From IMG/VR virus record IMGVR_UViG_3300009180_002134, positions 1-54,578 of that record: 54,578 nucleotides of DNA; one strand, 5' to 3'. Numbering within the stretch: position 1 is the first letter of the stretch; each line of letters begins with the position of its first letter. The DNA comes from a virus. This document shows, one piece after another, positions 2,193 to 52,232 of the stretch. Made by a program: the position numbers and the translations under genes. Below the pieces are notes generated by a model, which was not told the origin of the DNA, did no database searches, and was given only the letters and a program-made list of their open reading frames with translations.

Positions 2193-3182
2193 TTATAAAC
2201 TATTTAAAAATGGTGTTGTTAAATCTGTCCATCCTGATACAGAGTTATATTTTTTAAATGAAGTAACATTTACATATGCATTGTATCCATAATCTACATT
2301 AATAAATGTACCACTGCAATAGAATACATCTACATTAGCTCCTACATTAGCTGCTATAATACCAGATGCTCCTGTTAAGAATGTATCTGATGCCACTCTA
2401 ATATATTCTGTAGCTAGTTTAACACCAGCACCATACTTAGTAGGATCTAATACAAAGTTATAAGGAGCAGAACAAAGTGTAGCTCTATTTGCCCATAGTA
2501 TAGTGGCAAGAGTGAAATACTGATCATTATTAGCAAATACACCAGCTCCTCTCACTGGAGTGGGACCACCAGCTAAATTAGTCATAACCCATTGAGCAGC
2601 TGTAACAACAGCACCACATGTGTTATCTGTCAAAGACTGAGCTTGAGTTTTACCTTTTCTCCACATACGCCCTACATTACCAACTTGTGATATACCTATA
2701 TGAGGCATATTTACTAAGAACAAAGCTCCATTAGCTGTAATATGAGAAGCCCAAGCTTGCAATCCTAACACCCCTGTATGAGGATAACCTGCTAATCCTG
2801 CACCAAAAAATGGTCCAAGAAAACTAGATTGTTGTGCCGAAGTTTGTCCCAAGTTGCCAACAAGCTCAACAGCATTAACATCATCTGAACATACATCTGT
2901 ACTAAGAAGTACATCTTTATAACTGTATCCTTGAGTTTTAATAAACTCTTTAGTAGCTTCAGCAAATCTTAATGCTGATATAGCATCTTCATATTCATCT
3001 TGAACAGTGATGTTGTATGATGTTGGATTAGGTGGAAAAACAGAAGTTGTACAACATAAGTCTGCTGGAACTTCATTCCATGTAGCTGGTCCTTGAGGAA
3101 AACTTCCTGCTGTTAGGATTAAACTACCAGGTACAATCTTGCCTTGCTTACTGTACCTTACAAATGCTCTTTTCTTTGCCAT
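2193..3182 (-). CDS. Tail-fibre-like protein with LCIB-type carbonic-anhydrase-like domain
   Basis: This protein has 329 residues. Residues 1-46 are the same anchoring module found twice in the downstream fibre gene. From about residue 60 the sequence resembles the LCIB/LCIC family of beta-type carbonic anhydrases: a Cys-Ser-Asp-Asp-Val-Asn motif (C98), a G-A-G-L-A-G-Y-P-H-T-G-V stretch, Trp-Ala-Ser-His (H147), a Met-Pro-His-Ile-Gly-Ile motif (H161), and Thr-Cys-Gly-Ala (C189). C98, H147 and C189 stand where that family has its Cys-His-Cys zinc ligands, so the zinc site looks kept. The family assignment is from memory of the motif pattern, not a search. An enzyme or a re-used fold for receptor binding are both possible. 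The gene lies in the fibre block, ten bases from the Fib_succ_major fibre gene. Confidence 0.7.
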   Translation of the reverse strand: MAKKRAFVRYSKQGKIVPGSLILTAGSFPQGPATWNEVPADLCCTTSVFPPNPTSYNITVQDEYEDAISALRFAEATKEFIKTQGYSYKDVLLSTDVCSDDVNAVELVGNLGQTSAQQSSFLGPFFGAGLAGYPHTGVLGLQAWASHITANGALFLVNMPHIGISQVGNVGRMWRKGKTQAQSLTDNTCGAVVTAAQWVMTNLAGGPTPVRGAGVFANNDQYFTLATILWANRATLCSAPYNFVLDPTKYGAGVKLATEYIRVASDTFLTGASGIIAANVGANVDVFYCSGTFINVDYGYNAYVNVTSFKKYNSVSGWTDLTTPFLNSL

Positions 3183-37600: not shown

Positions 37601-39130
37601 TGCTTGACCTTCCACTCCTTTTCTTACAGATTTTTCCAGTCCACCTTTATATCCATGATAAAGATCATAATAATAATCTTGTAACGTTGTATTAGATCCC
37701 TCTTGGAATAATTCTTGCAATCCTTCAGATGCTTCCCATTTAAATACATTTTTTCCAACAGCTTTTGTAGCTTCCCAAGCAGCTCTTCTTCCACCAAAGT
37801 CAGTGGCTATTTTACCAAGGGTGCTAAATGTTCCAAAGGCTCCTTTAGCATATTGTTTAGTTAGTTTTTCACCAGCTTCTTTACCAATTTTTCTACCTGT
37901 AACAGTTATAACATCTTCAGCAAATCCACCAGCTTCTCCTAACACACTTCTACCAAATTTAAATTTAGTAAACAGATTATCAAATTGAAGTCTATTAGCT
38001 AACATCAAAATTCCAGTGTTCACTTTAAAGTTATCTGAAGCAGCATCCATAGCTGTTTTCTTCATTCTATCAACATTAAGTTGTGATGGAGCTTGTCCTG
38101 TTTTAAAAAGCTCTTCATCATATAATTTAGTGTAAAGATCTCCATATGTACCAGCCATTTCCATACGAGCCTCTGTCATTGCCATGTTAGTTTCACTTAA
38201 GAAACGTCTTACACCACCAATACCTATAGCTGCTATTTGTAATGCACCAGCACCGGCCTTACCATACTGAAACATCTCATATCCTGTATTAACTAAAGGA
38301 ACAAACTTTCTAGCTCCTTGTACAAGACCTTCTGCAAATGATCGTGATTTCCATATTGGATCTCCCAGTTTTTTCATGTCTTTAGCCAATTCTTCCACTT
38401 TAACAATCTTTCCCATCCAAGAAGCTTCTTTTATTCCAAGCTTAGCCAAAGAAAATTCTGTAGAAAGTCCCATAGTTAATAATTCCTCAGAAAGAAACTG
38501 AGCAATTGTACCTACAGCAAAACCTGATTGTTGTAACATTGTACCAAACATACTTCTATTAAAAATACCTTCTTTTGATTCAGGTGTTTCAAATATTGCA
38601 TATTTGTTCATGATATCTTTAGTCTGCTTATCTTGTTCTAACAAGTGTTCAGGACTACCATATAACTTAGACATGTCAGCTGATCCAATAGCATCAGCCA
38701 TATATCCCCAACCTTTCCATCCTTCTATAAAAGTATTACCAGCAAGTTTAACCATACCTGTAAGACCATTACTCCATACATCTCCCCATGTCTGAGCTCT
38801 ACCATATCTATATTCATTCTCTTGTCCAAGATTAGGATTAAATCCTAATGTTTTATAGTGGCTAGAATTAACATATCTATCAGCTTGAGACCTATTCCAA
38901 TCAAAAAATACTGGAGCAGCCTCTGCTGTTTTAGATGCTCTACCGGCAGCAAATGCTTCAAGACTACTTTTTACAGGATCTTCTGCAGGTTGTTGATAAG
39001 ATGGAGCTGATTGAACACCACCACCTATTAAATCAAAAACATTAGTTTCTGATTGAGGCATATCCAAATTAGGATCTTCAAAATAATTTCCTTGTAAATC
39101 TTCAGGTATTATACCGGTTTCAAATGACAT
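25658..39130 (-). CDS. Giant virion RNA polymerase-like protein, 4,490 aa
   Basis: This is the largest gene of the window. Near residue 3350 there is a V-R-I-P-S-Q-D-K-H-S segment. A glycine-poor loop then leads to A-D3391-F-D3393-V-D3395-K, the DxDxD magnesium motif of two-barrel RNA polymerases as in crAss-like phage virion RNA polymerase (Cellulophaga phage phi14:2 gp66 type). That enzyme has about 2,180 residues, so this chain is about twice as long. The extra N-terminal part (~1-1650) is helical and unrecognised. A zincin-like module with H1841-E-A-F-H1845 lies between. A packaged enzyme that transcribes early phage genes on entry is the expected role (from the family). The fusion of further domains is unusual. 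Confidence 0.75.
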   Translation of the reverse strand: MSFETGIIPEDLQGNYFEDPNLDMPQSETNVFDLIGGGVQSAPSYQQPAEDPVKSSLEAFAAGRASKTAEAAPVFFDWNRSQADRYVNSSHYKTLGFNPNLGQENEYRYGRAQTWGDVWSNGLTGMVKLAGNTFIEGWKGWGYMADAIGSADMSKLYGSPEHLLEQDKQTKDIMNKYAIFETPESKEGIFNRSMFGTMLQQSGFAVGTIAQFLSEELLTMGLSTEFSLAKLGIKEASWMGKIVKVEELAKDMKKLGDPIWKSRSFAEGLVQGARKFVPLVNTGYEMFQYGKAGAGALQIAAIGIGGVRRFLSETNMAMTEARMEMAGTYGDLYTKLYDEELFKTGQAPSQLNVDRMKKTAMDAASDNFKVNTGILMLANRLQFDNLFTKFKFGRSVLGEAGGFAEDVITVTGRKIGKEAGEKLTKQYAKGAFGTFSTLGKIATDFGGRRAAWEATKAVGKNVFKWEASEGLQELFQEGSNTTLQDYYYDLYHGYKGGLEKSVRKGVEGQANVQGLKTFLMGALTGRLLSPINYVVGKTKYYAGTSAKDRAQRKNGIEDAVKTVNAFYENPNKFLPEHIANVKVQNKVAQNMEEAIANRDAYVFHNNKNSGFAKMISAAIKTGTVESVIDTLRGYGETFDDKTNNDFKEAFGMTPDETNRASVKEFFTKIADDVVEYHKNWKALTDKYGDLIKPDLYLEGSESHKVALMAKRVLNDAIEMMSTTDYKAKQSALRSVALLNNMASKPVIGGSAASAFRNLGVMENTELEIETLEEEIKSAEALPKKDKATKDLIKSKKAQLKALQAWKENSPSLKLMGRKEKRKFNKAIKAFQNYMNAKNGEAKIDITLKTDDVQEIYESLIDYMDLNTDNKEYIDAYNIMANPIQFVNIHRRLMDAMQATGEKMLAEHLEEMIREAQGKPPLKEDDEPELSHKVTPQEDGKFSVVSSKGTVVAKDIETLDEAQTIADDLDAVFKKEQKEKEETGEEQYPAVPSGLDSNAIVKEMSNGIYLIELPDIETGTTVYLIVDKNGAFITNIKLDSKDYPDYEYNILYEDYAKAKSIYEALQAQVKKDNSEFSFGGKTIKQGTVLLDDKGRRYKVLTKGEVEEVGGIKQITVAEITNGSTSTSRPIKENLNGWRLESEVEKAVTPDNPNAFRLVRNNELVKIYPHVNRESGEKREEAEERLSNLLLNTPAAQLLAGMSISITKNKTITPSKLAADKEGNNENKHLRVNGEPYTIALIYNGQPIGYFPYYNQYTYLNDNGQPTDMSSITKDRFQQIFDSQDKNVNNEFDWFKKNQQRSREIHGVLINELKAGMDSVTLSPEQLKSLFYLDVSSGEYSYVKKGQTPPTLNDLKYKTIDGFVYIIDRRTKHLGNMMYQDDEVVRTNAPMTQREAIDKRVKEARYEKNGADGLRNYGRYVAAVELPNGEIKFIELSTFEIPTADLNELVTKFNERSKKLKEENLEEAIDENTKKPFTKAKDVTASNDINEDISDTIYITVPGQRGMNVTLALNPQGDVRVEFAVVTYGKETEKAVIVLKESNADETKPLALKDIDDLVGRINRAVAEYDAKADSTKKTKGRLQTISTTDTNGKIREFRMTVKNFKRSISESFSPEEYSGLQTNTTVDVVKNSNVTLNVKKSDNKPNSSTTTGAAKGTNVPSTEDIDIPEDIAKAQADMVRKRKEEQDRLKREKEEREGKRNIADVKQDLEEQRYAIADIIEGELIKQGLGKAERLKYINNSEAFLNDPRVKAIDQQLAVINGSAAKKVSDNLSQEDLLDITEFRKWMKEHLPAFISDEDLKLISSNMKGQGITVGMFYMHMDKLNQRLTGKLALSKYAPAYHEAFHGIFRMLLSDAKIEQLYGIAKKELLQQGKSIAALKKELLESAPEIYSRLSDKELEERVYEEYMADKFQEWKKNIKTETSPVNKSFFRWLLDLITNFFKSLRTSPLENLFMKIEKGKFRNSHIMPNRFTEAMNIGITEPALKAIQIGTTVIDNEDGERERIPIYLSQAEGDVIASTIAAIYHKKMREANLRTYDETILNEILNDYSNLYDERINPYYQSEDFLSRYPTASSYMKAMEKIKIRRRLFTQEELRQILKDSVKIHTDIMGYREKDISDEEEADVDEFGDRSTTDKRKESYSIGGYGSLSKELRQYLSTIVDEVTDEFGNSEFVTEDGKLTGVHLIEAANANTLYNGLLKAVSGSTTQEEVLLKFEIFAQYNPEANKFWNKFSKDVDLIYDKDKNFVDIGNKKQATLFQAVIKGFMQHSVDYYFQNMDIGKGVTTIMEANRRGAGKNQFSIWYNAYLELFVNQYQQVKSDRRSQLDFMDNKTRGLSGLMNLLNKGTYYNEQTLKAEIETIITRLKDDLGISLSPLYLKYSYLKSIVLDPENPADIENFKLLRAYEEIEPITEESVREIYSVIRAGKNPFGNNVDPDKLIDAEAQTKLLDGDAESLPEDDKTKDEDVEDDTMGAIGRLSIIAAGNAIFDEQVATTSFKNASGELVQSHQMPTFNLIRGVELRSKEFRENLKKDPFLKTNFLLNNPFFEYVAESFKIARIDGLKQSSLNKNDNNKYVEGKKLNVNQNKGVTYGSMSDREFALSIFNLYLKNTIHTIPRDGENASKTFATAPVLMGVLAEKNTGDLANNLPIVKAVEIKNKTIQLTSVAKTALFNEVMREYERIGRVQDEIDNGFPRGVIEGYHNGDPAKGGERGLRFIKMRSMLGDMVGELEVAARNGEELSTDQKQLIFNGIENYWLGPGGQVDGLLTDLTDLGIIYEDSKGELRSKLLSSTLFSGHKIDNKVDTERNQHTNLSTNPEFNMAQILLSNYINALSVNQLFANDVAENFKDDGGVDEVKRNVVRNAMGSDISSIITAPELGINHTNKTSHVVTFNDPMYKGKFAGKNKEKADAQMYMSVKGLRYTLFGLGKLNAAQADLLDKIERGQSVSVGDIFGDVYTDVNGKQKRRGGSIQFNAQTNSIKLVYGDGQKIVKTSGIILTKEYTSMKDRGPRPGMEELHKLRETLEEFEGRNQTIAFGIPKSASKGKKVNIADSVGAIEDKNFIEHDNRFWRLQLENPSNKLEITDPTQAKQSIISEQYRDLEVNFRGETIKLGEVIDEYLSDTEQRVKNNYFKARDEIFDIKGAFRELGKSLKQGQIEPKLGKFLENAVKTLASIGADPQTIEFFTPLKNEKTGELTPVYDLNHPMLLDKFTQLFLAYFSKGVMSEKVPGHALTLVSNWGSQVVKRVIELDENGQPKRWEVITRRKYEKDAALLSEARNAKKWNNELDREFEGLSIGDLYIDDLRHNVPEYDKKGNIIGYFTEFMIPPHFKEHMVQYNADGTLSDDTLRAFGVRIPSQDKHSAITLKLVDFLPAHYGSIGVFPHELIEISGADFDVDKLYMHIVDSYTKDNKRIPYGTAKTIEDRFVEYVHYLSKKDKVFKAKMRELENAAVNENDADSYDDEYEDEKYDNIEDLFHDLLSPAVSARNLLEIRALQELKLPSSPAEYAKYVKEYGEPNNGVLNNRILDAKIKLLNNDGMVKAKEGETPVAFQVAEVQPLLDAVNTFIDKFKVLGDVLIEGTVDVDSIRGMIRSFKNNKEGASGIGPAVNSMLTAALMNSFYKQTKLRKLNAKGEAMYALTIDGHEFDTYENSRAWNNETQTYDGKRVFYNISAIVSAMTDNAKERLAARLGLNINAIDVVSNMVALGVSLETALMFNLQPSVREFYKRIAITNKNIKTAKEEEIYKSKVGDELLEELSKKRGEDKGMFPITTDLLEKNIKSEGGNASADYSVFSSFLQFYNQTKYFSAVSQVLKLSKGLGTSNENIDKIEDKEKLLGLNLTDEEFVKTNIPFDLRQVLTGVEESKPHHRITANYLRIKNQIQELQKSVMIEKSYMYKRLKETVLANLRVNNKEKEKFNIQLKRDLISYLGMKAYIQYLKVNGKSTKLAGLTNALIYDASAVQRGEGFKDIIDTVRAIREELKETNDGKGNYFAKQFLNIIPVMLTDISADKQFVNPKNRGGINMVEINTWAKLGQLEINKLKDSFLEMYSNHKTRPMVYTLFNYLLVKDGGQYKSGSFIRYMPPAMFKELLDATKQAHTVLKEDGLVDDNVTYKETFGATALEVFNEFTKLYTTNTNNAFSIRRVKSSLEKKDLDQVVKPDTIKGYTPKIFLTDGKNIKIDMFGGIREKEIQWLIDENGYGSMVEMINTGTFSETELEKMNYNQDLLEALGFSIVNEPDENGKNRYYIQLPYTLMIKTGDQFNGYTETYYKLKSVSKEKDDQKSPGIGNFILKPGDNLALGSAAVYEKFDLVGSRNQWKLAGLTGETPTNVVLRERFGKNKKTFDLDDIDYNDDYSDIDMGGNPLGLQNFVYELQNEYGIDTEFVGDKLQFYKTVGGKKVLYETTAKTAEELYKMRIKEDEDRGGTIASSTAMNNPFAGMEDIETTSPENQDFGDIDVSDQPAQSDVAKALEKYRKDIAAKKDEKDNGCTPK

Positions 39131-39152
39131 GAATATATATCTTTAGAGTTGA

Positions 39153-42100
39153 TTATTTATTATATGTGTTTGGATTTATTCCTGCTTTTTTAAACATCTC
39201 ATCTTTTGTAACAGTTTGTATAGGTTGCCCTGTTTTAGGATTAGTTACTGTTCCCGATGTTATAGCTGTTTGATATTCTTTTAATGTTGTGCTATTCTTT
39301 ACCATAGAATCGTAATATAATTTGTAGATGTAATTTACGATTTCATCTGGAGTTTTCCTATTATCTCCGGCTCTAAGACTAAAATCCACTTCAACTTTAA
39401 CAGGTTCCATTCTTGTTATAAGTTCTCCAGCTTTATTTTTTTCATTAACACGTTTTCTATAATTGAGAGTGAGATGTGCTGAAGAAGGCTCTGCATCTTT
39501 TCCCATTTTATTAGGAATAATTTCAAAATCAAATCCTGATGCTGCAATTATAGGATCACTTACTAATTTGTTTCCTTGTAAAATAGCACCATATATATAA
39601 TTACCTGTATTTTTAGGAAGATCTCTTAAATTAGTCATAGTTGATTCATCTATTTCTAATTGATATATTTGTTGATTAAGTTTATTTAAAGCAACATTTC
39701 CAATTTCTTGTTTAGTTTCTGCAGATATTTCTCCTAGGTTAAAAGATATTGTAGGTTTACCATTAACTCCCAGTGATTTATAAGTGAAGCCTTGAACATA
39801 TTTTTCCATATTGTCTTCTTTATTTTGAAAAAGCATTTTCAAAGCATTGGCTATTTCAGGATCTGTTATTAGATTACCATTATTGTCATATAAGGTGGCA
39901 TTAGCTGGAGAAAATGCATTATTAAATAATAAAGATGCTTTATCACCTATATTTTTTTTATCAAAATTATAATACCATTCTTGACCCAATTGACCAGTTC
40001 TAGTCTGATAATATAAAAGATTAGGTACTACAGATTCATATGCAGCTTTGATTTTAGTAGAAAATTCTTGAGAAGTTCCATATTTTTTTTCTGCACCACT
40101 CATAGCATTCACATAAGCAGCATTTGATGCCCAACCTAAACGACTTGATATACCATTTACAGATGTTACACTATATTTTACACCATTAATAAATGTTTCA
40201 CTACCACCTGCCATCGGATCTGCTCCTATTTTTAATTCTCCTTGTATAAATAATTTAGCAACATCTTTTCTAGAAAGTTTTTGAACAGAACCTTTTCCAT
40301 CAAGTGACTTAAGAACTAATTCAGGCATGTCTTTAGATATATCATTAACACCAAGAAGTTCTCTTTTACCATTACGTTCTATTGTAACATTTTTAAATTC
40401 AGGATTAGTTTTAAGATTTTGATCTAAAATAGCTCTTCTATTTTCTTCATTTGCATTATATGTATCAAACATTGTTGTAGCCGTTGTATAAGCTGTTAAT
40501 GCAAGAACCTCCTCATCTCTTAATGGAACATCATATCCATCTTTAGACATGTTTAATCTTTGTGCATAATAATCCTGAGCATATGTTACTAATGCATTTT
40601 TAAAAGTACCTGGTCCAGTTACTTTAGTAATACCAGCATTTTTAACAGCATCATTAGCTAATAATTTAGCTGATAATTTATTTAATGCTACAGCTTCTTC
40701 TTTTGAAGCTGTATACTCTTCTGTTGCCTCAGGATCTACTGATTTTGATTTCATTTCCTTACCCCAAAATGAAGAAACTAATGTTATTTCTTCTTGAGTA
40801 AGACCAAGTCCTATTTTAGTTAATAACAATAATCCTTTTGTATCAAACATTAAATCATTTGCTCCTTTAAAAATATCTTTTTGATAATTATTAAATATAT
40901 CAAAAGCTACACTTTTATTTTTTTCAAGTATATTGGTTGTACCAAGTCCTTGATATACACCTAATGTAGTTTGATCCACTGCATTAACAGGTGGTTCAAT
41001 TATATTACCAAATGCATCTCTAGTTGGTTCCGTAGTTTTGGTATCTTTATCTTTACCATCTTTACTAGTTTTAACTTCAGGATGTTCTCTTTCCCAAATT
41101 GTATTAGCTTCATCAAAATTTTGCTTTCTTACATCAAGTAGGAACTTCTGTCTATTTAGTTCATGTGCTTGTGCAGTTGTAAAAGCTGTATTTTCTTTTA
41201 TAGTTTTACTCTCAATACTAGCTCTACCTGTAGACCAGTTATTGATAACACGTTGCTTAGCTAATACACCAAAATAACCATCTGCATTTGCAAAAACAGC
41301 ATTTCTTATTTTATCTTTATCAGGTTGATCAAAGTTTTTATACTCTTGATTAATTCCATCTCTTTTAGCTATAAGCTGAGCTCTTTCATTTACTAAAGCT
41401 GTAAATGTATTTTGTTGATCAGGACTTAGTGTAGCTGGCAATGAAGAAAGAAGACTATTAATTTTAACTAATTCTACATTAACTTCTTCATTTCTTTTTG
41501 TAAATCCATCATTTAATTCAGTGATTACATCTTCAGATATAAATTTCATCACTTGATCATCTGTCCAAGTGGGATGTAGCTTTTTAGTATCTTTTATTCT
41601 CTGTTCTTTTTCAACAACACCTGTCACTCTAAACTGCTCATAGAAATTATTTCCCATGACAGACTGAGCCCATGTAGCATACTTCTTTTGAGATCTTTGA
41701 CCATTCTCTGTACTAACTAAATATGGTCCAGATGGATCATCATATTTAACCGATAGGTTATTATCCTTAGCCATTTTCTCTAAATATCCTTCTATGTTTG
41801 TCCATGGGGTGGCTTCTCTTTTTTCCACTTTAGAATATGCATCAGCATTTCTATTAGCATTTTGTAAAGCACTAAGACCGTTATTTAAATACTGAGTGGT
41901 GATTCCATTATACTGCTCTCTTATCTTTGCATCAGAAGATGTTCTCCAGTTGTTTAATTTTTCAGCTTGACTTTGATACCACTTTGTAAGTTTAGTATCT
42001 TCCATCATTAATTTATCTTGCCAAAAAGGAGCATAAAGATTCTCAGCTATTTGCTGATTTTCAGGAAGAGAAAGATCAGAACTAGCAATTTGCTTAAGTC

Positions 42101-42320
42101 CATCTTCTGCTTGTTTGATATATTGATCTCTTAAAGGAATGTTTGCCTTATCTGATAGAGGAGCATTAAGTACTGATTGATAAGCTATCTTAGCTTTACT
42201 TACACCTTGTTCATACTGAAGCTGCTTCTTCTGCAGCATCTTATCAAAAAAGTTAAAATCCGGAGCATACACGACCGGTTCAGGTAATACATCAGGTATA
42301 AAGGGAAGGTATTGTGCCAT
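39153..42320 (-). CDS. Large helical protein, possible packaged or ejection protein
   Basis: This 1,055-residue protein shows no recognised domain. The N-terminus (Q-Y-L-P-F-I-P-D-V-L-P-E-P) is followed by long charged helices rich in Lys, Glu, Gln and Asn, with many Tyr. There is no signal peptide or clear membrane helix. It lies directly upstream of the RNA polymerase-like gene in the same direction, 22 bases away. In crAss-like phages the genes beside the RNA polymerase encode cargo proteins carried in the virion; a cargo role is inferred from that alone. Confidence 0.6.
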   Translation of the reverse strand: MAQYLPFIPDVLPEPVVYAPDFNFFDKMLQKKQLQYEQGVSKAKIAYQSVLNAPLSDKANIPLRDQYIKQAEDGLKQIASSDLSLPENQQIAENLYAPFWQDKLMMEDTKLTKWYQSQAEKLNNWRTSSDAKIREQYNGITTQYLNNGLSALQNANRNADAYSKVEKREATPWTNIEGYLEKMAKDNNLSVKYDDPSGPYLVSTENGQRSQKKYATWAQSVMGNNFYEQFRVTGVVEKEQRIKDTKKLHPTWTDDQVMKFISEDVITELNDGFTKRNEEVNVELVKINSLLSSLPATLSPDQQNTFTALVNERAQLIAKRDGINQEYKNFDQPDKDKIRNAVFANADGYFGVLAKQRVINNWSTGRASIESKTIKENTAFTTAQAHELNRQKFLLDVRKQNFDEANTIWEREHPEVKTSKDGKDKDTKTTEPTRDAFGNIIEPPVNAVDQTTLGVYQGLGTTNILEKNKSVAFDIFNNYQKDIFKGANDLMFDTKGLLLLTKIGLGLTQEEITLVSSFWGKEMKSKSVDPEATEEYTASKEEAVALNKLSAKLLANDAVKNAGITKVTGPGTFKNALVTYAQDYYAQRLNMSKDGYDVPLRDEEVLALTAYTTATTMFDTYNANEENRRAILDQNLKTNPEFKNVTIERNGKRELLGVNDISKDMPELVLKSLDGKGSVQKLSRKDVAKLFIQGELKIGADPMAGGSETFINGVKYSVTSVNGISSRLGWASNAAYVNAMSGAEKKYGTSQEFSTKIKAAYESVVPNLLYYQTRTGQLGQEWYYNFDKKNIGDKASLLFNNAFSPANATLYDNNGNLITDPEIANALKMLFQNKEDNMEKYVQGFTYKSLGVNGKPTISFNLGEISAETKQEIGNVALNKLNQQIYQLEIDESTMTNLRDLPKNTGNYIYGAILQGNKLVSDPIIAASGFDFEIIPNKMGKDAEPSSAHLTLNYRKRVNEKNKAGELITRMEPVKVEVDFSLRAGDNRKTPDEIVNYIYKLYYDSMVKNSTTLKEYQTAITSGTVTNPKTGQPIQTVTKDEMFKKAGINPNTYNK

Positions 42321-42377: not shown

Positions 42378-45300
42378 TTAACTATTATCATCATCATTAC
42401 TACCTGTTACATTTCTTGTGTTATTAATGTAAGCTTGGTTCCATGCATTTACATCAGAACTTCTACTACCACCTCTTGAAGGTCCAAACTCTTGATCAAG
42501 TAGTAATTTAATTTGACCATCTGAATAACCTGCTTGTTTATACTCATCTAGTCTTTGTCTATATGAAGCAGCTGTACTAGCTGTAGCACCAGGACCAATG
42601 ATTGTATTGTAAGCTCCTACACCAGGTCTCATTTGAATCATTCCACCTTGAGGAGTGTCTATAACATTGTAATATGGATTAGTTGCATTTAATATGTTTC
42701 TCTTAGTAACATATTCATACATACCTTTCTTAACCTTATCTCTATCTGTCAACCATTTTCTCCATGTATTTCTGTATTCTTTGTCATACATGTTTTCATT
42801 TTGATGTAATATATCTTGTCTATTAGCATCATACTTCATCATGTCATTCATGATACCTGCTTGTAAAGGAGAATATTGATTAGCTATTCCTACATTTTGG
42901 TTACTCACTCTAGCAATTATATTAGCTGCATTTCCTACAGCACCTTGTTGAGCTGCATTAGCCATAGCTGCATATTGTTGAGGACTACCAGTGTACCCTC
43001 TACTCATAGCTGTAGCCAATCCTGCATTTTCTGCAAGCTCTCTTTCAGGACTTAAGAATGCTGGATTAGGCATGTATTGTTCTAATCTAGCAGCCCATGG
43101 GTGATATTTCTTTGGTCCAATAGCAGCAGCTGAATCAAAATTAGGAGGCATTCCTGGAAATATAGGAGGTGGTATTAACGATGGTGGTGTTTTTGGTTTT
43201 TCAGGTTTACAAACTTTTTCAGCTTCTTCTTTTGTTTCATAGTAAGGACCTCCTTGAGATTCATCACCATATCCCATCATATCAGATGTCACCCATTCGT
43301 GAGTGATAGGATCTGAAAATCCTTCTTCAGGACCAGCTTTTGAAACATCAACTTTAACAGGACCATTTTCTGTACACCTCCATTTATATTTAGGTGGTGT
43401 TGTTACAGGTGGTGGAGTGTCTTCAATAGTTGCATATTGAGGATCTGTACCTGGTTCTTCTATATCTGGAGATTGATAAGTCAATCTTTGACCTTTAGCT
43501 AATTCTTTTAAAGCTTTTATTTGTTCTTCTAAAGGAGCATTTTTCCAGTTTTCTGTTTCTAAGAAAGTTTTATAACAGTTAGGTCTTGCTTTTGTATCTG
43601 CTATAGTGTATAATAAATTTTCACAACCTTTTATAGCACGACCTCCTCCACCTATTTTACGTCCTTTATGAATTGTTCCTTTCTTTAAACTACCTGGTTT
43701 ACCCGGTATCCACCAAAGATCTACACTGCCTGGGTATGGAACATATCCTGTAGGTATAGATCCTTTAGGATATACCTCAGCTTCAACTTCTCCTTTATCT
43801 TTTGTTTTTACTTTTTTCTTTTTTCTATTACCCACTTCAGTTCCTTCGTCTGCATATTGTACATTTCCTCCATAGGCCATCTCACCATAATCTTGAGGAA
43901 TGTAAGTGCCATCATTAAATGCAAAAGTTCCACCATAAGCATAAGGAGATCCACCATACATTTGCATAGGAGGCATTTCTTCCCCTTGTTCTTCTTCTGG
44001 AGCTTCCATCATTTGTTCTTCCATACCTTGTTGAGGCATTTCTTGTGGAGGCATCATTTCTTCTTGAGGCATTTCTTCCTGACCTTGTTGAGGCATTTGT
44101 TGCTGTCCTTGATTCTGTAAAGCTTGTTGTCCTTGTTTAGTTGTACCTAACACTTCTTCAGCTATCTTAGGAAGACCTTGTGGGAAACCTTTCATTGACT
44201 CCTGTATAAGAGCTAAATATCCAAGTTTCTTTTCATAATTTTCCATCATCAACTGAGCCGTTCTTTTCTTAATAGCATCAGCCAATGGATCTTGTAAAAT
44301 AGCTTTATATTTATTTACGTCATAACGTTTTGCTATTTCAGCAGGTGTGTATCCTTCTTTAATAGGCTTTAAACCAAAAAAGTTTAACACTTCAGGATCT
44401 TTAATTCTCATCTTCTTTGTATCAGAGAATATAAAACTTCCCTCAGGTACATTAAGAGGGGTGCCTCCTTGGGTATGTTTTTTACCACCAATCAACATAT
44501 GTTCTCTTTGACCATCTTTATCAATGTCACCAAACACTGTTTCTCCTTCTTCAGCTTCAACATTTGCTTGATCACGAGGTACAGGTCCTAATGTCTTAGA
44601 AGAGTTTTCATAAGGATTTTGAGACATTGCAGAATATGTATTTCTTTGACCAAGATCAAAGCCATAACCTGATTGTCCACCATAAGCCATTTGCTTTGGT
44701 CCACCTGTTATACGTATTTTCATATCATTATCAATTGTATTGTTATTAAATCCACATTTGTGACATACATTTACATCAGAAGGATCAGATTCATCAGCTG
44801 TCCAAGACCATCCACAATTTGAACATGTAATTTCATCAACACTTCCACCTTCTGCAAAGATTACTTTTTGTTTTTTAAGTCTATCATAAACTCTTCTATC
44901 TTCCCATTTAATAAACTCAGCAACAAGTTTATTTCTTTCTTCTTCATTAAGATCTCTAAGTTTAAAATCTCCACCCATAGCTTTAACTATTGGCATTGTA
45001 CTAACAGTTGTAACAGTTGGTTTACCATTCACCCATCTATTACGAGCTTGTGATACTGTTAAGTTTTTATATCCCTCTCCAAATATAAGATCTTTCATAG
45101 CTTGCATCCCTGTCTCCATATCTGGGAATATAGCCACTCTACCATCTGAATCTTTTCTACCTATTTTAGCATTGTATGTTTTAGCAAATTCACCATAGTG
45201 AATATTACCTGGATTATAATGTTCCCATGACGATGGTAAAGGTCCTTCTTCAGCTTGTGTTCTTTCAACAGATGTTACCGGTGCTTGATATGCTTGAGGA

Positions 45301-47879
45301 ATTTCAGAAGTTATAGGTTGAGGAAGGGGCATGTTTGATGATATAACATCTGAAGGTAAATCAAGTGATTCATCTATAACACCACCGTATGCATACTTTT
45401 TTTCTTTTGTGTTCCCATAAAAACTTGCATGAACATGATCAGTGTGTGGATCATTACCGTTCTGTTTATTTGGTGTGTATGTTTGCCATCCACTATTAGG
45501 ACTCCATATTCTTCTATTAAATATTAAATATTTAATGTTTCTATCAGAAGCTTCATTAATAAGCTTCTGTGCTATTTGATTACCTGCTGTTATACTGTTT
45601 ATACCTATATCTAAAGCATTCCCAGTATTATGATCACTTGTTCTTAGTTTATGTTTCCAATCACCTCCTATACCTAAATTAGTAACCCCTTTAAACTTAG
45701 TAGAAATATCATCCCATGTTTTTTGAGCCATTGGATTCACTTCAAAAGAACTAGATGTATTATTTTGAGGTTCAGCTTTTCTTTTTTTAGTAAAATTAAA
45801 TATAATATCAGGATCAATTTGTTCTCCTTGAGGATTTCTATATGTAAAATGTAAATGTGGTCCATTTGAATTACCAGTGTTACCAGATAAAGCTACAATC
45901 TGTCCTTTAGCAACAGGATCCCCTATATTAACTTTATACCCATTTAAATGAGCATATCCTGTTTTTGATCCATCAGAGTGTTGTATAATAAGTTGATTAC
46001 CACCTTGAGGATTTTGATATATACTTTTTACTACACCATCCATTGGTGCATATATATTTGTATTAACACCTACTGCTAAGTCAATACCATTATGTTCACT
46101 AGACGCAAATCCTTGTGGTCCTTTAGGAGCTTTTCTACGACCATATCCACTAGTTACTACAAAGTTTTTTAAAGGAGAAAATAAACCTTCTCCTACTGGA
46201 TAACTTTCTCCACTTGTTTCAGAAGAAGCAGGTGCTGATGAAGTTTCTGGTGCAACTTGTGGTGCAGGAGTTGGTGTAGATGTTATCTGAATCATTTCAG
46301 AAGGAAGACTTAGCTCATCATCAATAGCTCCACCAAAAGCTCTTATCTTCATTCCAGGATTGTTCATGTAACGACCCTCATTAGTAAAACCTTGTTCAGG
46401 TTGTCTAAATGCACCATATGAACTACCTGTTACACTATAGTTACCACGATTACCACTTCTATTAGCTGGAACTACAGCTGCAGAATTAAATCTTTGATTT
46501 CTAGCCCATTGATCATAATCTTTTTGTTTATTTCTATCACCTATAAACTGACCTACAACACCAAGCTTATCTGTCATTCCTTTAAAAGCCTCTACACCAG
46601 CATTAAACTTATTTGTTTTTACACCTATTTGATCAAAGAATGTTTTAGGTTTAACAACGTTTGACTGATCATGTTCATATCCTTTTCTTGCTTCCCTTCT
46701 TCTTTCTCTTTTAGATAAATCTAATGAAACACGTGGTATATAATCAGGACTATTAGGATCATCATTACTACTTGTAATATTAGTAGTTGTATTATTAGTA
46801 GTTGTAGTACCAGTTTGTGTTGTATTAGTAGTTTGTGCTGCAGGTTCTGTAGTTGCAGGAACTGTAGTAGCAGTAGGCTCTATAGTTGGTACAGTAGTTA
46901 CAGGCTCTGTACTTGGTACTGTGGTTATAGGTGCTGTAGTTGTAGGTTGTTCAGTTGATACTACAGGTTGTTGATCTGGAGGTGGAGTAACTACAGGTGT
47001 TGTAACCTTTCCTGTTTCATCTTTATTACCATTAATTGTTGGCACTGTAGTTGAAGCTGTAGGAGCATTTGGATCTTGTCTATTTTTAAACTTACCTCCA
47101 TAGTTTGGAAGACCATATCTTTGATACCAAGATAATGTAGCAGGATTTTCAACAGACCCTGTTCCATCATTACTAGCAACAAACTTTCCATTAACAATAT
47201 TACCTCTGTTTGTATTACTGTAAAAAAACTGTCTACCTTGATTCATCAAATTTCTTTGTTGATCAACTGGAAGAGTTGTTATTTTATCTTTATATTGATC
47301 ATAGATAGTATTGAATGCAGTTTCTTTAGTTGGATCTGTCCATACACCAGCTTTATTAGCAGCTCTAAAACCACCTCTTCCTGATAAACCAGCTGCATTT
47401 CCTTCAACAGTTTTTATATATTGATCTAACATATAAATTCTAGGATCTACCCCAGCATTATATAATAAATCACCAGCTTCAGTTCTTATACCAGGATTAA
47501 ACTGTTCAAGATCTGTTCCATAATCTTGATTAAAAGTATTATACCAAGATTCATAATCTGTTGGATTAGGAGCTGTATAATCTGCAGGAGCAGGTTGTCC
47601 TGTACGGGCATCCATAGTTTTACCAGTGGCATCATCAGTATAATACCCTCTTCTATTATTATACCCATAGTTACCTAAACCATATGCTTGATTTTTATTT
47701 TGATCATATCCACCCACTGTACCTTCTGTATCAAAAATCTGTTCATACGGTCTTATCTTAACACACTTAGTTCCATCCCAATATTCATCATCAGCACAGC
47801 CATTAATCTGTGTACCATACTCAGCTTTTGGTAATCCTGTAATTCTAATTTTTCTATATCCAGTAATTTTTACTTTCAT
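42378..47879 (-). CDS. Multi-domain cell-wall hydrolase with Gly-Gly linkers
   Basis: This 1,833-residue mosaic contains: an N-terminal module beginning M-K-V-K-I-T-G; a Thr/Pro-rich linker (~280-375); an M23 (LytM-like) peptidase with H596-N-G-I-D600 and H675-L-H677; a second hydrolase-like domain (~750-825) with S-D-H-N-T-G-N-A-L-D-I-G and H-T-D-H-V-H; a lysozyme-like module with Y-N-P-G-N near 890; and a zinc ribbon (C-S-N-C ... C-H-K-C, ~1017-1045). The C-terminal 750 residues are Gln/Gly/Tyr-rich and unrecognised. Short linkers of the type M-K-I-R ... G-G precede several domains (residues 510 and 1053). It could open the cell wall during infection, and the linkers may be cleaved (inference). 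Confidence 0.75.
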   Translation of the reverse strand: MKVKITGYRKIRITGLPKAEYGTQINGCADDEYWDGTKCVKIRPYEQIFDTEGTVGGYDQNKNQAYGLGNYGYNNRRGYYTDDATGKTMDARTGQPAPADYTAPNPTDYESWYNTFNQDYGTDLEQFNPGIRTEAGDLLYNAGVDPRIYMLDQYIKTVEGNAAGLSGRGGFRAANKAGVWTDPTKETAFNTIYDQYKDKITTLPVDQQRNLMNQGRQFFYSNTNRGNIVNGKFVASNDGTGSVENPATLSWYQRYGLPNYGGKFKNRQDPNAPTASTTVPTINGNKDETGKVTTPVVTPPPDQQPVVSTEQPTTTAPITTVPSTEPVTTVPTIEPTATTVPATTEPAAQTTNTTQTGTTTTNNTTTNITSSNDDPNSPDYIPRVSLDLSKRERRREARKGYEHDQSNVVKPKTFFDQIGVKTNKFNAGVEAFKGMTDKLGVVGQFIGDRNKQKDYDQWARNQRFNSAAVVPANRSGNRGNYSVTGSSYGAFRQPEQGFTNEGRYMNNPGMKIRAFGGAIDDELSLPSEMIQITSTPTPAPQVAPETSSAPASSETSGESYPVGEGLFSPLKNFVVTSGYGRRKAPKGPQGFASSEHNGIDLAVGVNTNIYAPMDGVVKSIYQNPQGGNQLIIQHSDGSKTGYAHLNGYKVNIGDPVAKGQIVALSGNTGNSNGPHLHFTYRNPQGEQIDPDIIFNFTKKRKAEPQNNTSSSFEVNPMAQKTWDDISTKFKGVTNLGIGGDWKHKLRTSDHNTGNALDIGINSITAGNQIAQKLINEASDRNIKYLIFNRRIWSPNSGWQTYTPNKQNGNDPHTDHVHASFYGNTKEKKYAYGGVIDESLDLPSDVISSNMPLPQPITSEIPQAYQAPVTSVERTQAEEGPLPSSWEHYNPGNIHYGEFAKTYNAKIGRKDSDGRVAIFPDMETGMQAMKDLIFGEGYKNLTVSQARNRWVNGKPTVTTVSTMPIVKAMGGDFKLRDLNEEERNKLVAEFIKWEDRRVYDRLKKQKVIFAEGGSVDEITCSNCGWSWTADESDPSDVNVCHKCGFNNNTIDNDMKIRITGGPKQMAYGGQSGYGFDLGQRNTYSAMSQNPYENSSKTLGPVPRDQANVEAEEGETVFGDIDKDGQREHMLIGGKKHTQGGTPLNVPEGSFIFSDTKKMRIKDPEVLNFFGLKPIKEGYTPAEIAKRYDVNKYKAILQDPLADAIKKRTAQLMMENYEKKLGYLALIQESMKGFPQGLPKIAEEVLGTTKQGQQALQNQGQQQMPQQGQEEMPQEEMMPPQEMPQQGMEEQMMEAPEEEQGEEMPPMQMYGGSPYAYGGTFAFNDGTYIPQDYGEMAYGGNVQYADEGTEVGNRKKKKVKTKDKGEVEAEVYPKGSIPTGYVPYPGSVDLWWIPGKPGSLKKGTIHKGRKIGGGGRAIKGCENLLYTIADTKARPNCYKTFLETENWKNAPLEEQIKALKELAKGQRLTYQSPDIEEPGTDPQYATIEDTPPPVTTPPKYKWRCTENGPVKVDVSKAGPEEGFSDPITHEWVTSDMMGYGDESQGGPYYETKEEAEKVCKPEKPKTPPSLIPPPIFPGMPPNFDSAAAIGPKKYHPWAARLEQYMPNPAFLSPERELAENAGLATAMSRGYTGSPQQYAAMANAAQQGAVGNAANIIARVSNQNVGIANQYSPLQAGIMNDMMKYDANRQDILHQNENMYDKEYRNTWRKWLTDRDKVKKGMYEYVTKRNILNATNPYYNVIDTPQGGMIQMRPGVGAYNTIIGPGATASTAASYRQRLDEYKQAGYSDGQIKLLLDQEFGPSRGGSRSSDVNAWNQAYINNTRNVTGSNDDDNS

Positions 47880-47888
47880 AAGTGTATA

Positions 47889-48548
47889 TTAACGTACATA
47901 TTCAAATGTATATCCACCCTCTTTTAATTTCTGAAGAAGTTCAGGAGTTGCTTCCATAGTTTGACCCACTACAATACCACCATCTGCATAATTACTTTTA
48001 GAAGTATTTTTTGCAAAGTTAGCTTTTTTAGATGATGGTTTGTTATAAGTTCCACCTTTTGCATATTGATTATCACGATACATCATACCATTATTCATAG
48101 CACCACCATATCCCATATCTCCACCATACATCATAGGAGATTGTTGATTAAAATAACTAGGTTGTTCCATCATTGGTCCACCGTAAGCATACTCACCATA
48201 TGTAGGAACATATGCTCCTCCATAGTTATAATATTGATTACCACTGAATGAACCATCGTCATAAGATCCACCGTAAGCATATGCACCACCATACATCATA
48301 GGAGGTTGTCCTTGTTGAGCCATCATTTGTTGCTGCATTCTAGGATCCATACCACCCTGCTGTTCTTCTTGACCTCCACCTTGTAAAGCTTCAACCATTT
48401 GAGCTAATGCTTGTTGTTGCTGTTCAGGCTTCATCTGCTGAAGTTGTTCAATTATTTTTCTAGGGTCAGTCTGTGTAGCCTGAGCATAAGCTTGTATGAT
48501 TTGCATGATCTGTTCTTGTTGACCACCACCACCTTGTTGATTTTGCAT
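47889..48548 (-). CDS. Gln-rich low-complexity protein with Tyr-Gly-Gly repeats
   Basis: This 219-residue protein has two parts. Residues 1-75 are a Gln-rich helix (Q-Q-Q-A-L-A-Q-M-V). The rest carries about nine Gly-Gly motifs preceded by an aromatic residue or by Y-A-[YKD], such as Y-A-Y-G-G, M-Y-G-G, Y-A-K-G-G and Y-A-D-G-G. The last twenty residues resemble the C-terminus of the gene at 52.2 kb. It lies nine bases upstream of the multi-hydrolase gene. No family is recognised. A flexible packaged or scaffold-type protein is possible. Confidence 0.6.
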   Translation of the reverse strand: MQNQQGGGGQQEQIMQIIQAYAQATQTDPRKIIEQLQQMKPEQQQQALAQMVEALQGGGQEEQQGGMDPRMQQQMMAQQGQPPMMYGGAYAYGGSYDDGSFSGNQYYNYGGAYVPTYGEYAYGGPMMEQPSYFNQQSPMMYGGDMGYGGAMNNGMMYRDNQYAKGGTYNKPSSKKANFAKNTSKSNYADGGIVVGQTMEATPELLQKLKEGGYTFEYVR

Positions 48549-48587: not shown

Positions 48588-51500
48588 CTAATCTAATTTA
48601 CGTTTTTTTTGTGGTTTCACCATAGAATCCATCAAGTTTCTTGGAGCTTGTCCACCAAATTTATTATAATAAAATTGTAATAATGGACTATTTTGTCTTG
48701 GTAATTGTGGAATAGAGATATCACCTCCATAAGCTTTCTTTTCATAAGAAGAAACATCTGAATATTTACTTGATACATTATTAGCAGGATTATTATAAAA
48801 TGCTTCTGCTTCTTCATTATTATCAAAATGTTTTGTCTGAGTTTTTTTAGCAATAGGATCAAAGTATTCTACATTCCATCCAACACTAGTATTAGTGGAA
48901 GGTGTTTCATTATATGAACCAGACATTGGAATATCCAACTTAGGGAATTTTCTTTCTTGTATTTGAAAATTCATAGTGGGTTGTGGTATAGGTATTTTAG
49001 TAGCTGGTACAAATGGTGTCAAATGTAATTTAGGTTCTGATTTAGGTTTTACATTAACTTTTGGTTTTTCTTTAAGTTTAGGTTTAAGAGCAGGATCGTA
49101 AGGAGTTCCTTTAGGTCCGTATTTCTTAAGTCTTTCTTGTTGTTGTTTAGGTTTAAGTGTATTCCATGGAGCAACATATATAGGATCATACTGAGGTAAT
49201 TCTACTATATCTGATGTAATGTACTGGTTTGCTTTGTTTACACCATCTGGCCATAAGTTACTGCTTGGTGATAGGTTTCTTCCCTCAGCACTAATCAAAT
49301 AATTTGGTTGTATTCTTCTATCGTATACACCAATAGGAATATTTTTATTTATAAAACCTACAGTGAGTTCTCTTTGATCAAATTTATTTTTATCAATATT
49401 TTTATAATATTCTTTTGATTTTTTCAGTCTATCATTTGATTGTCTTGTATTTTCTAACTCACTAAGAATTTTTTTTCTATCAAGAGAAAAAGGATCTTTT
49501 ACAATCTTATAGTTAGGATTATTTTTAAACCAATTTTGTTGAGCTAATGCTCCTTGATAAAGTCTAAGACTATCTGCTTGAGTAGCTGTTCCATATCCTG
49601 GAGGACATTGACAATTAAATTCTGGACATGGGCAATCTTCCCCACCTTCATCAAATCTAGGAACTCCCATTCCTACATTGTAATATCCTTGGTTAGATGC
49701 TACACCACCTTCTTTCTTTTTATTTAATGTTGAAGCTCCTGAAATAAGTCCTGAACCAATACCCACACCTGCTGCAGTTTGTCCAATCTTTTTCCAATCT
49801 AAAACTCTAGGTGCTGGTGTATATGTACCAAAACTTAAAGTTTCAGCAAGTGGATCACTTGCTTGACTACTTGCTTTAGTAATGTTTTGATAGTTAGGTG
49901 TGTATGTTGGTCCAGCAGAAGGTTTAGTAAAGTATTGTCTAGGATTTGTAAACATTTCACTACTTCCAAACAATGATGATTGTTTAGGAGTTGTTCCAAT
50001 AGATGAAGATATAGGTTTAAGTCCTCTTGGTCCTAATAAACTTTCTATAGATGGTGTATGACCATATTGTCTATTCAACCAATATCTTGTATTAGAATCA
50101 AATAATTTTCCTGTTTCAGGATCAAAGAGTATTCCTTTACCTTGTTCTAAGGAAGTCTCAGGAGCAAGTTTAGGGATTCTTTTATAGAAAAAATCTTGAA
50201 AAGGAGTTATTTTTAAATCATCTTTTAAGTTTTTCATTTTATGAGCAACATCTTCAAAAGATCTAGTTGGTACAAGTCTATCTGCAACATTAGCATTATA
50301 AAACTCATCTGCTTTAGTAACAGGATTATATCTACTAAAAGTTTTATTTTGAATAATTGCTTCTCCAAGATCTGTAGGAGCTGAAGGTTTTATAAATCTT
50401 CTAACTCCTGGAAGGTTTGCAAATTCTAATAATGGTAAAGCATCTGCAACATTTCCTACAAAGTTTAAAGCTCTTGCATTTGTACCAGCATCACCAAATG
50501 GAGATTTAAATTCTGACATAGTTTGACCAGGTAAAAGCGTACTCTCATTTAACTTATGACTACCATATGCTAATAAATTACCTGTTCCTTGTAAAACATC
50601 TTGAGTAGTTTGAAAAGGATCTGAAACAAATTGTTTAGTGGCATTACCTGCTCCTTTCAACCATGTAAATGGAGATAGCGTATTTATAATACTAGAAGAA
50701 CCTCCCATATTCTCAGCAGCTGCACTTAAATTACTAGGAACATACCCCATCTTATTATATGCTCTAATTGCTGTTCCCGGATGTGTTATTATATCCAATA
50801 TTTTATTAACAGGTGATTGAGTATATCCTTGTCTAAATTGTGCTTGATTCTGATTAGATAATGATGTCTCTAACATATCCTTTCTAAGCAACGCACGTTT
50901 TTGATCCTCTGTTAGTTTGCTATTCACTACAAATGGTTTACTTGTAGGAAATACAACTTTTCCATCAGGAAGTTGCTGAACAAGTTTTCCTGATTCATAT
51001 AGTTCTTTATACAATTTAGATGCTATATCAATACATCCTGTACCTTCTAAATATATTTGACCTGGTTTACATTTAACCTCATCACCATCTTTAGCTTTTA
51101 CTAATCCTCCATTTTTAAAGTTTAAACCTTGTCTAAGAGGAGCAGATCCAATGGGATAATTATTCGTTGAATTAAGATTTGGTTTTGGAAAAATAGATTT
51201 ACCACCATTGTCAATATACTGCTCATATGCTCTAGCTTCACCTTCTAATGTAGATGGGTCTTCATATATACGATCTTCAGCCCCTACAAAAGGTTTTCTT
51301 CCTTTTGCATCTGGTTTAGATCCAGCAATTAATCTATTTCTTGGTATAAACTGTAATTCTGGATTAGCTTGTATCATTTTATTCATTTCATTATTCACTT
51401 CTTGTCCTCTTCTTTCTCTTGGATTTTTACCTGTTAAAGTTTGATAATGATGATATTGTTCATGTCCCATCCACCAAGGATTATTAACATTTTCAATTTG

Positions 51501-52232
51501 ACTATTAGGATCATACCAAATAGTATTGTCACTATATCCATAATGACCTTCTGGATTTTGTCCTGCAACATATTTAGGTTCTGCAAAATTAATTACAGGA
51601 AAAAAAGGTTTCTTAGGACCTGGTCCAGATTGACCACCATTTTTATAATAAAGAGGTGAAGGTCTATTAACTCCAGACATAAATCTACTTGCATCTAAAT
51701 GTTCACGTCTACCTGGTTCTTCAGCAAATATTCTGTTATAATAACTAGGACCATACATATCTGCTGATTGTTTAGATGGTTGATATCCACTTTTTTCAGT
51801 CCAGTTACCACCATAAAAACCATCTACACCATGATAGTTAGATTGATTACTAAATGTAGGATGATTTGGTTTTTTCCATTTATCACTTCCATGACCATTT
51901 TCATCCGTCTTTTTATAATCTCCAGACTTCCAAAAACCTTGTACATCATATGCACCCTTATCCATCATAATATCTCTACCTTGTCTTTTAGATTCTTCAG
52001 CAGCCCATTCACTAAACTCTTTCTGTTCTTTTTTAGTTAATGATGTATTGAATCTATCTGTATACATCATTTCAGGATCTTGCTGTGGTAAGAAAGATAT
52101 AGGACCTGGTCCTTTAGTACCACCTTCCTTAAACATTTCACCATGGTTCATCTTACCGGCCATGTAATCCACCATTGGACCACCATATGCTAATTCAGGA
52201 GTTTCCCATCCTACAATTTTTATTTTATGCAT
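48588..52232 (-). CDS. Large protein with HExxH motif and Gly-Gly linkers
   Basis: This 1,214-residue protein starts M-H-K-I-K-I-V-G-W and soon shows A-Y-G-G, like the N-terminus of the 1,833-residue neighbour. Near its first fifth there is a zinc-peptidase-type motif, W-M-G-H257-E-Q-Y-H261-H. Gly-Gly linkers recur (F-K-E-G-G, Y-K-N-G-G, F-K-N-G-G, F-D-E-G-G); two are followed by Gly-Pro-Gly-Pro. There is a Cys-rich segment (C-P-C-P-E-F-N-C-Q-C) near residue 880, a possible metal or disulfide site. No full domain is recognised. A packaged or entry role is inferred from context. Confidence 0.6.
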   Translation of the reverse strand: MHKIKIVGWETPELAYGGPMVDYMAGKMNHGEMFKEGGTKGPGPISFLPQQDPEMMYTDRFNTSLTKKEQKEFSEWAAEESKRQGRDIMMDKGAYDVQGFWKSGDYKKTDENGHGSDKWKKPNHPTFSNQSNYHGVDGFYGGNWTEKSGYQPSKQSADMYGPSYYNRIFAEEPGRREHLDASRFMSGVNRPSPLYYKNGGQSGPGPKKPFFPVINFAEPKYVAGQNPEGHYGYSDNTIWYDPNSQIENVNNPWWMGHEQYHHYQTLTGKNPRERRGQEVNNEMNKMIQANPELQFIPRNRLIAGSKPDAKGRKPFVGAEDRIYEDPSTLEGEARAYEQYIDNGGKSIFPKPNLNSTNNYPIGSAPLRQGLNFKNGGLVKAKDGDEVKCKPGQIYLEGTGCIDIASKLYKELYESGKLVQQLPDGKVVFPTSKPFVVNSKLTEDQKRALLRKDMLETSLSNQNQAQFRQGYTQSPVNKILDIITHPGTAIRAYNKMGYVPSNLSAAAENMGGSSSIINTLSPFTWLKGAGNATKQFVSDPFQTTQDVLQGTGNLLAYGSHKLNESTLLPGQTMSEFKSPFGDAGTNARALNFVGNVADALPLLEFANLPGVRRFIKPSAPTDLGEAIIQNKTFSRYNPVTKADEFYNANVADRLVPTRSFEDVAHKMKNLKDDLKITPFQDFFYKRIPKLAPETSLEQGKGILFDPETGKLFDSNTRYWLNRQYGHTPSIESLLGPRGLKPISSSIGTTPKQSSLFGSSEMFTNPRQYFTKPSAGPTYTPNYQNITKASSQASDPLAETLSFGTYTPAPRVLDWKKIGQTAAGVGIGSGLISGASTLNKKKEGGVASNQGYYNVGMGVPRFDEGGEDCPCPEFNCQCPPGYGTATQADSLRLYQGALAQQNWFKNNPNYKIVKDPFSLDRKKILSELENTRQSNDRLKKSKEYYKNIDKNKFDQRELTVGFINKNIPIGVYDRRIQPNYLISAEGRNLSPSSNLWPDGVNKANQYITSDIVELPQYDPIYVAPWNTLKPKQQQERLKKYGPKGTPYDPALKPKLKEKPKVNVKPKSEPKLHLTPFVPATKIPIPQPTMNFQIQERKFPKLDIPMSGSYNETPSTNTSVGWNVEYFDPIAKKTQTKHFDNNEEAEAFYNNPANNVSSKYSDVSSYEKKAYGGDISIPQLPRQNSPLLQFYYNKFGGQAPRNLMDSMVKPQKKRKLD

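Follow-up and report, generated by a model that had tools for sequence, protein, structure and literature searches.

The gene at positions 42378-47879 of the window, a single open reading frame encoding a protein of 1833 aa, very probably represents an end-to-end fusion of two neighbouring genes of a cargo cluster in a putative uncultured relative of crAssphage, a common phage of the gut. By the window we mean the whole stretch of DNA analysed here, a virus record of 54,578 bases that is a fragment (IMG/VR IMGVR_UViG_3300009180_002134); all its genes and features mentioned below lie on the minus strand. Judged from sequence, the fusion joins the gene of a wall-cutting enzyme to that of a putative virion-stored protein, and the start motif of the second gene persists in nearly all fused relatives. 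We refer to the two parts as unit 1 (residues 1-1052; 44724-47879), a putative lytic cargo protein, and unit 2 (residues 1053-1833; 42378-44723), a putative relative of cargo protein C1 of crassviruses. The finding bears on how crassviruses, the dominant gut phages, select and order the proteins that they store and eject.

An earlier note on this DNA had pointed to segments within the frame that look like gene starts (MKVKITG at residue 1, MKIRAFGG at 510 and MKIRITGG at 1053), and had proposed either that the gene arose by fusion of units that each carried such a head, or that the heads act as unit tags. The segments are real and exceed chance: a full scan of the 1833-aa protein finds four 8-mers with at least five matches to MKIRITGG, at residues 1, 9, 510 and 1053, whereas 300 shuffles gave a mean of 0.10 and a largest count of 2. 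As shown below, the segments do not all have the same standing.

Split and fused homologues

A scan of viral contigs with the core of unit 2 (residues 1053-1235) yielded 121 confirmed relatives, largely on uncultured contigs, of which 80 were kept and 62 were distinct. Matches in L003, L010 and L015 were rejected as unrelated chance matches, and a scan of genome contigs for relatives returned none. Among the 62 representatives, which were picked by distinct core sequence so that close relatives weigh in the counts, and which were classified by an offset threshold with L060 placed by hand in the split class, residues 1053-1833 form a stand-alone gene in 37 and belong to a fused gene in 25, the window counted. 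In nearly all of the 37 split genes the head makes up the first codons (for example, MKTYKVRIKKSPESMAYGGQ in L038 and MRKVKITGLPKNAKGG in L070). Furthermore, eight loci (L038, L039, L042, L045, L052, L054, L055 and L108) carry unit 1 and unit 2 as adjacent genes, each with its own head. At these loci unit 1 is a separate gene of 524-630 aa that starts with MKIRITGK.LPKAQ or similar, contains an A2 domain, an M15-like module and an NPGN module, and ends in ..YELTEDEIKSILSSGGDVEFL followed by a stop, the start of unit 2 lying 19-21 nt further on. The earlier note had suggested comparing homologues for split forms, the opposite outcome being units always fused with unrelated linkers; this opposite outcome did not occur. 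Split homologues exist, with gene starts that coincide exactly with residue 1 for unit 1 and with residue 1053 for unit 2; among the homologues examined, none starts at 510 or 830, positions that align with internal linkers of unit 1. The proposed fusion of head-bearing units is thus borne out at 1053, but not at 510 and 830.

The alignment of the junction points in the same direction. The window protein parallels the split unit 1 proteins up to 'IFAEGGSV'; thereafter follow a zinc ribbon (residues 1019-1043; 44751-44825), a short linker and head 3 (residues 1053-1068, MKIRITGGPKQMAYGG; 44676-44723), the probable former start of unit 2. Where the window protein has the zinc ribbon and the linker, the split form has its C-terminal tail and the stop. 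The existence of split and fused forms, the exact correspondence of head positions to gene starts, the loss of the tail and stop of unit 1, and the retention of head 3 are all shown by these sequence comparisons. In a maximum-likelihood tree of the core, whose changes cannot separate fusion from fission, at least four changes between the split and fused states are required (bootstrap 4-5), no fewer than two of them being forced by the starred branches; the fused L091-L107 group is nested deep within a split group.

Similar CxxC zinc ribbons were found by blastp in varied genes of the cargo cluster (L033, L034, L038, L045, L050 and L052), as if the ribbon were a mobile module.

The head motif and its distribution

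We built a profile of the head from gene starts only, using 36 separate unit 2 genes and 25 starts of fused genes, and ran it across the interior of the 26 proteins, the window protein included, in which the core is located well inside. In 21 of the 26, the top interior match fell on the true junction; in L032 the junction ranked second, while L037, L060, L064 and L066 gave no match at the junction or one slightly off. In the interior of the window protein, the profile scores 15.9 bits at exactly residue 1053, the next best score being -3.4, and does not detect residues 510 and 830. A search by tblastn with the head alone returned no matches, and we found no description of the head in the literature.

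The start of the window protein (head 1, residues 1-22, MKVKITGYRKIRITGLPKAEYG; 47814-47879) scores 30.1 bits over residues 8-30. Its residues 9-22 (RKIRITGLPKAEYG) are the best counterpart of head 3, so that head 1 consists of two copies in tandem (MKVKITGY-RKIRITGLPKAEYG), an arrangement also found in L013. The idea that heads 1 and 3 were copied from one another at the DNA level was rejected, since their codons differ. The palindrome ATACGTAT was considered as a regulatory site and rejected, as it shows no clear excess in the contigs and occurs at one gene start only.

When 551 gene N-termini, which take in genes of at least 80 aa of contigs G005 and G006, were scanned with the profile, 79 reached 8 bits, a score that no reversed control attained. 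The genes at or above 8 bits that do not contain the core are other genes of the cargo cluster, namely unit 1 and genes of the g1214 type; high scores are confined to this cluster. As the profile was trained on the starts of unit 1 and unit 2, the independent matches are only the g1214-type genes (8-10 bits) and a gene of L064/L066 that begins with MAKFKITGLPKAQ. The g1214-type gene of the window (48588-52232, 1214 aa) starts with MHKIKIVGWETPELAYGG and scores 10.1 bits. The earlier note had mentioned this start (MHKIKIVG), but had taken the gene for the next one upstream; it is the second, since a YGG-rich cargo gene of 219 aa (47889-48548) intervenes.

Many genes of the cargo cluster close with a C-terminal tail (..TP.QL..LK..GY.FE..). 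In the window it is found in the 219-aa gene (..TPELLQKLKEGGYTFEYV; 26.0 bits, residues 193-218) and in a neighbouring cargo gene of 767 aa (52236-54539; 10.6 bits, residues 743-764), and elsewhere in L038-L110.

Composition of the two units

Unit 1 is predicted to be a cargo protein that cuts the cell wall; it has a head at its N-terminus, and its lytic domains are exchangeable. Head 1 is followed by a linker and by the A2 domain (residues 425-509; 46353-46607), the conserved core of the unit, which has blastp matches in split and fused relatives. Beyond the linker after A2 (residues 510-527, MKIRAFGGAIDDELSLPS; 46299-46352) lies a Peptidase M23 domain (residues 595-690; 45810-46097), which scores 93.8 bits against PF01551, the curated Pfam cut-off being 28.7 bits. 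It is followed by an M15-like domain (residues 703-819, SDHNTGNALDIG...HTDHVH; 45423-45773) that matches phrog_32486 (6e-8) and whose profile matches PDB 9flh (E 2.8e-8); this third lytic domain is an addition to the earlier note. After a second linker copy (residues 830-845; 45345-45392) comes the 'NPGN' domain (residues 886-1012; 44844-45224). Its AlphaFold2 model (pLDDT 90.5) matches the catalytic-domain fold of Enc34-type endolysin (7q47, with 117 residues aligned at Z 10.2; the next row reaches 5.5), and the domain is accordingly predicted to be Enc34-endolysin-like. The zinc ribbon closes the unit, just before head 3.

The resemblance between the two linkers, also observed previously, is genuine: 514 AFGGAIDDELSLPS and 830 AYGGVIDESLDLPS share 9 of 16 residues (514-529 against 830-845), a level that, besides the head pair, is reached within the protein solely by glutamine-rich and N/T-rich stretches. 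In relatives, however, the corresponding stretches are GG linkers that stay inside unit 1 ('PRMAQYGGGVIPEALVMP' in L038 and 'PEMRAFQLGGGLDYMMP' in L059). By this alignment, residues 510 and 830 belong to linkers within unit 1 that flank its wall-cutting domains, and not to gene-start heads. The set of lytic modules varies among relatives: M15-like and NPGN in L038, M23 and NPGN in L002, NPGN alone in L044 and L059, and nothing between A2 and the core in L041. L002/L031, the nearest relative, is fused in the same way but lacks both the M15-like module and the 830 linker; most simply, this linker copy would have arrived with an inserted module.

We consider it highly probable, though less firmly than the fusion itself, that unit 2 is C1-like; the evidence for homology is moderate. 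Its core aligns by hhalign with gp45 of crAss001, DAC15, cr85 and cr111 (E 3.5e-6, probability 88%), the aligned part being the compact domain only (about residues 1097-1232; 44184-44591), out of a C1 architecture that also includes an N-terminal membrane segment and a helix bound to the tail barrel. The AlphaFold2 model of the core has a pLDDT of mostly 92-98 (segment residues 41-190), while the head region is of low confidence and without structure. In the structural aligner, chain 7qog_M of the crAss001 portal assembly ranks second (Z 5.2, 90 residues, 22% identity, covering 34-182), and its residue numbers, 433-547, fall within the C1 segment; it is tied with an unrelated helical match, and the top row (Z 5.3) covers only part of the domain, 102-181. 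The structural match of the modelled core to the C1 compact domain is weak. A search of this model against the PDB with Foldseek gave nothing at E 0.001, the core HMM matched no PDB sequence, and Pfam revealed no shared domain among 55 members.

The viral library contributed a weak match to a protein of phage cr116_1 described as 'Cargo protein 1 compact domain'. Among named phages, the profile matches csAssE-Sib (9e-13), FpV21 (7e-8) and gp040 of Cellulophaga phage phi4:1 (1.4e-6); direct tblastn of the window's unit 2 against phages gave none, and these relatives were reached via L038 and L098. The C1-like family can be traced across environmental relatives to a gut phage, csAssE-Sib, alongside a short motif restricted to cargo-cluster genes. 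It has been reported that epsilon crassviruses lack a detectable C1 homologue (PMC10172136).

Gene order is consistent with this assignment. In the annotated crassviruses examined, the C1 gene comes directly after the muzzle gene and ahead of the C2 and RNAP genes. G005, whose unit 2 core is 60% identical to that of the window, encodes a muzzle homologue as well as a capsid protein that matches the major head proteins of crassviruses, and the order in G005 and csAssE-Sib (muzzle, cargo and, in G005, RNAP-type giants) agrees with that in crAss001, DAC15, cr85 and cr111. The 54.6 kb fragment contains neither a crassvirus major capsid protein nor a muzzle; the window ends short of the muzzle gene, so that only the downstream side of this order is seen in it. 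There, as with C1, unit 2 precedes the C2-slot and giant genes. The C2 slot is occupied by a gene of 1055 aa (39153-42320), assigned by position only, its hhalign match to gp46 (E 0.27) not being significant.

The relatives in named phages differ in layout. Unlike crAss001 gp45, which has no clear head and only a vaguely similar basic N-terminus, the window form combines a strong head at the N-terminus, a lytic unit joined to its front and a long middle part that is variable. In phi4:1, gp040 holds the core domain and gp041, adjoining the muzzle homologue gp042, takes the position of unit 1; gp040 and gp041 are annotated as detected by MS/MS, gp040 as a virion protein, and it is only through this homologue that unit 2 may be placed in the virion. 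Unlike in the window, they are separate genes without a head, and the N-terminal stretch of gp040 instead resembles that of upstream cargo genes; the FpV21 homologue likewise has no clear head. In Leptolyngbya phage Lbo-JY46, by contrast, XAI97384 is a separate gene in the matching position that starts with MKIRIIGLPKAQIG (head E 3e-7), and the gene upstream of it ends in the C-terminal tail (..EEVAKLIELGYDFEVV); it differs from the window in not being fused, and its core is too diverged for the profile. For this phage (L123, PP438436) a cyanobacterial host is listed, yet it supplies the best matches to the capsid and muzzle proteins of G005, a contig that otherwise matches crassvirus-like phages of Bacteroidota.

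Possible role of the heads in cargo loading and ejection

Taken jointly, the fusion, the C1-like nature of unit 2 and a role in cargo seem to us somewhat more likely than not. On this reading the gene is a fusion of neighbours within a cargo (ejection-protein) cluster of crassvirus type, and unit 2 would be a homologue of C1, a protein whose compact domain binds the portal. The heads would be short, basic, disordered segments that aid the loading or threading of cargo into the portal and tail channel. Such a function would explain why non-homologous neighbouring genes bear heads and why head 3 is kept internally. In crAss001, residues 214-245 of gp45 lie in the tail barrel and residues 425-552 at the portal, and ejection is expected to proceed from the N- to the C-terminus (PMC10172136). 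If unit 2 is placed like gp45, the lytic unit in front would exit ahead of C1, given that C1 is expected to be ejected from its N-terminus, and would clear a way through the wall for the channel. By our estimate, unit 1 (1052 residues) in twelve copies would amount to about 1.4 MDa and would not fit the tail cargo zone of crAss001, which holds about 0.4 MDa (PMC10172136), so that copy number or geometry would have to differ.

We hold tentatively, at a little under even chances, the idea that the head serves as a tag for loading or ejection; it is suggested by the distribution of the head, its predicted disorder and its retention after fusion. The earlier proposal that heads may act as unit tags fits the restriction of the heads to the cargo cluster and this retention. 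A wider system of end tags for unrelated cargo of crassvirus-type phages is possible but rather doubtful: an N-terminal head (K-[IV]-[RK]-I..LPKAQ.G) would mark several such proteins and a C-terminal tail (..E[IL]..L...G[GY].[FV]E[FIY]) others, the head would work internally too, and fused neighbours would be loaded, and later ejected, as a single thread following the order of the genes. The tail profile gave 76 terminal matches against 7 internal ones. With the C1-like family and its short motif traced, cargo targeting becomes testable with one short peptide, and natural fusions suggest an order of ejection.

Podoviruses such as T7 and P22 have ejectosomes with virion-borne wall hydrolases. 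The likeness to these lies in the working, in that ejected proteins breach the cell wall and build a channel; unlike in T7 and P22, the hydrolases here are fused to a putative portal-bound cargo protein, and the comparison is one of function, not of sequence. A comparison with podovirus ejection has also been drawn for crAss001 (PMC10172136).

Retention of head 3 is open to other explanations. A KIRI-like core is kept at all 23 fused junctions scored, and the Met at 22 of them. Processing of a polyprotein would account for this: a protease would cut near the Gly-Gly before each internal head and free unit 2 with a near-native N-terminus. In 20 of the 23 fused proteins, a GG precedes the internal head by at most 13 residues, compared with 8.3% for other Met positions of these proteins. 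The exceptions, however, are the window, L031 and L032, in which the GG is 40, 37 and 21 residues away, and GG is common throughout these proteins (21 in the 1833-aa protein), and the 219-aa neighbour would be fragmented; we regard such processing as unlikely. Slightly less likely still is that head 3 is no more than a leftover of the fusion, persisting through inertia or as part of the unit 2 fold. It does lead directly into a conserved stretch of unit 2 (YGGQ.GYGLDLG), in which the constraint may originate, but homologous heads also start unit 1, heads give detectable scores on unrelated g1214-type genes and can occur as tandem doubles, and the head is predicted to be disordered and outside the fold.

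The least likely explanation is that the ATG of head 3 is still used, giving a separate unit 2 beside the fused protein: this ATG is kept at 22 of the 23 fused junctions though spacing and flanking sequence vary, and the codons at head positions 3, 4 and 6 show stronger synonymous conservation than most columns, but its surroundings are not start-like (the 20 nt upstream have a mean score of -4.7, against +5.1 at true starts and -5.9 at other internal ATGs, p = 0.14, and an A+T content of 65% against 81% at true starts), and codon conservation is not specific to the head, 15% of columns having p<0.01. An internal translation start at head 3 is thus not supported by the sequence, and the idea of an exceptional synonymous constraint on the head was dropped, the constraint being present but not exceptional. 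The loading or ejection tag remains our preferred reading of the retained head.

Other observations were made in the window and its relatives. The 4490-aa protein of the window (25658-39130) matches two adjacent genes of G005, of 1848 aa (55% identity over 897 residues; residues 41-930) and 2625 aa (26% identity over 223 residues; residues 3188-3401), and its sequence makes it likely to be a further fusion of neighbouring cargo or RNAP-type genes; a 4783-aa gene of G001 groups with it as an apparent fusion. In L012 (2-1954) and G005 (37895-41005), a cargo-cluster gene contains, between GG-rich linkers, a domain that reads like a histidine phosphatase by its sequence (VTFLRHGITDEDLRGENSGQNDIP). 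Finally, the adjacent window genes at 1138-2181 and 2193-3182 share a 48-residue start that is 60% identical and begins with MAKKRAFV.Y.KQG...PGSLILTAGS.P; the first gene holds a further internal copy, and this start is a candidate anchor reused in tandem.
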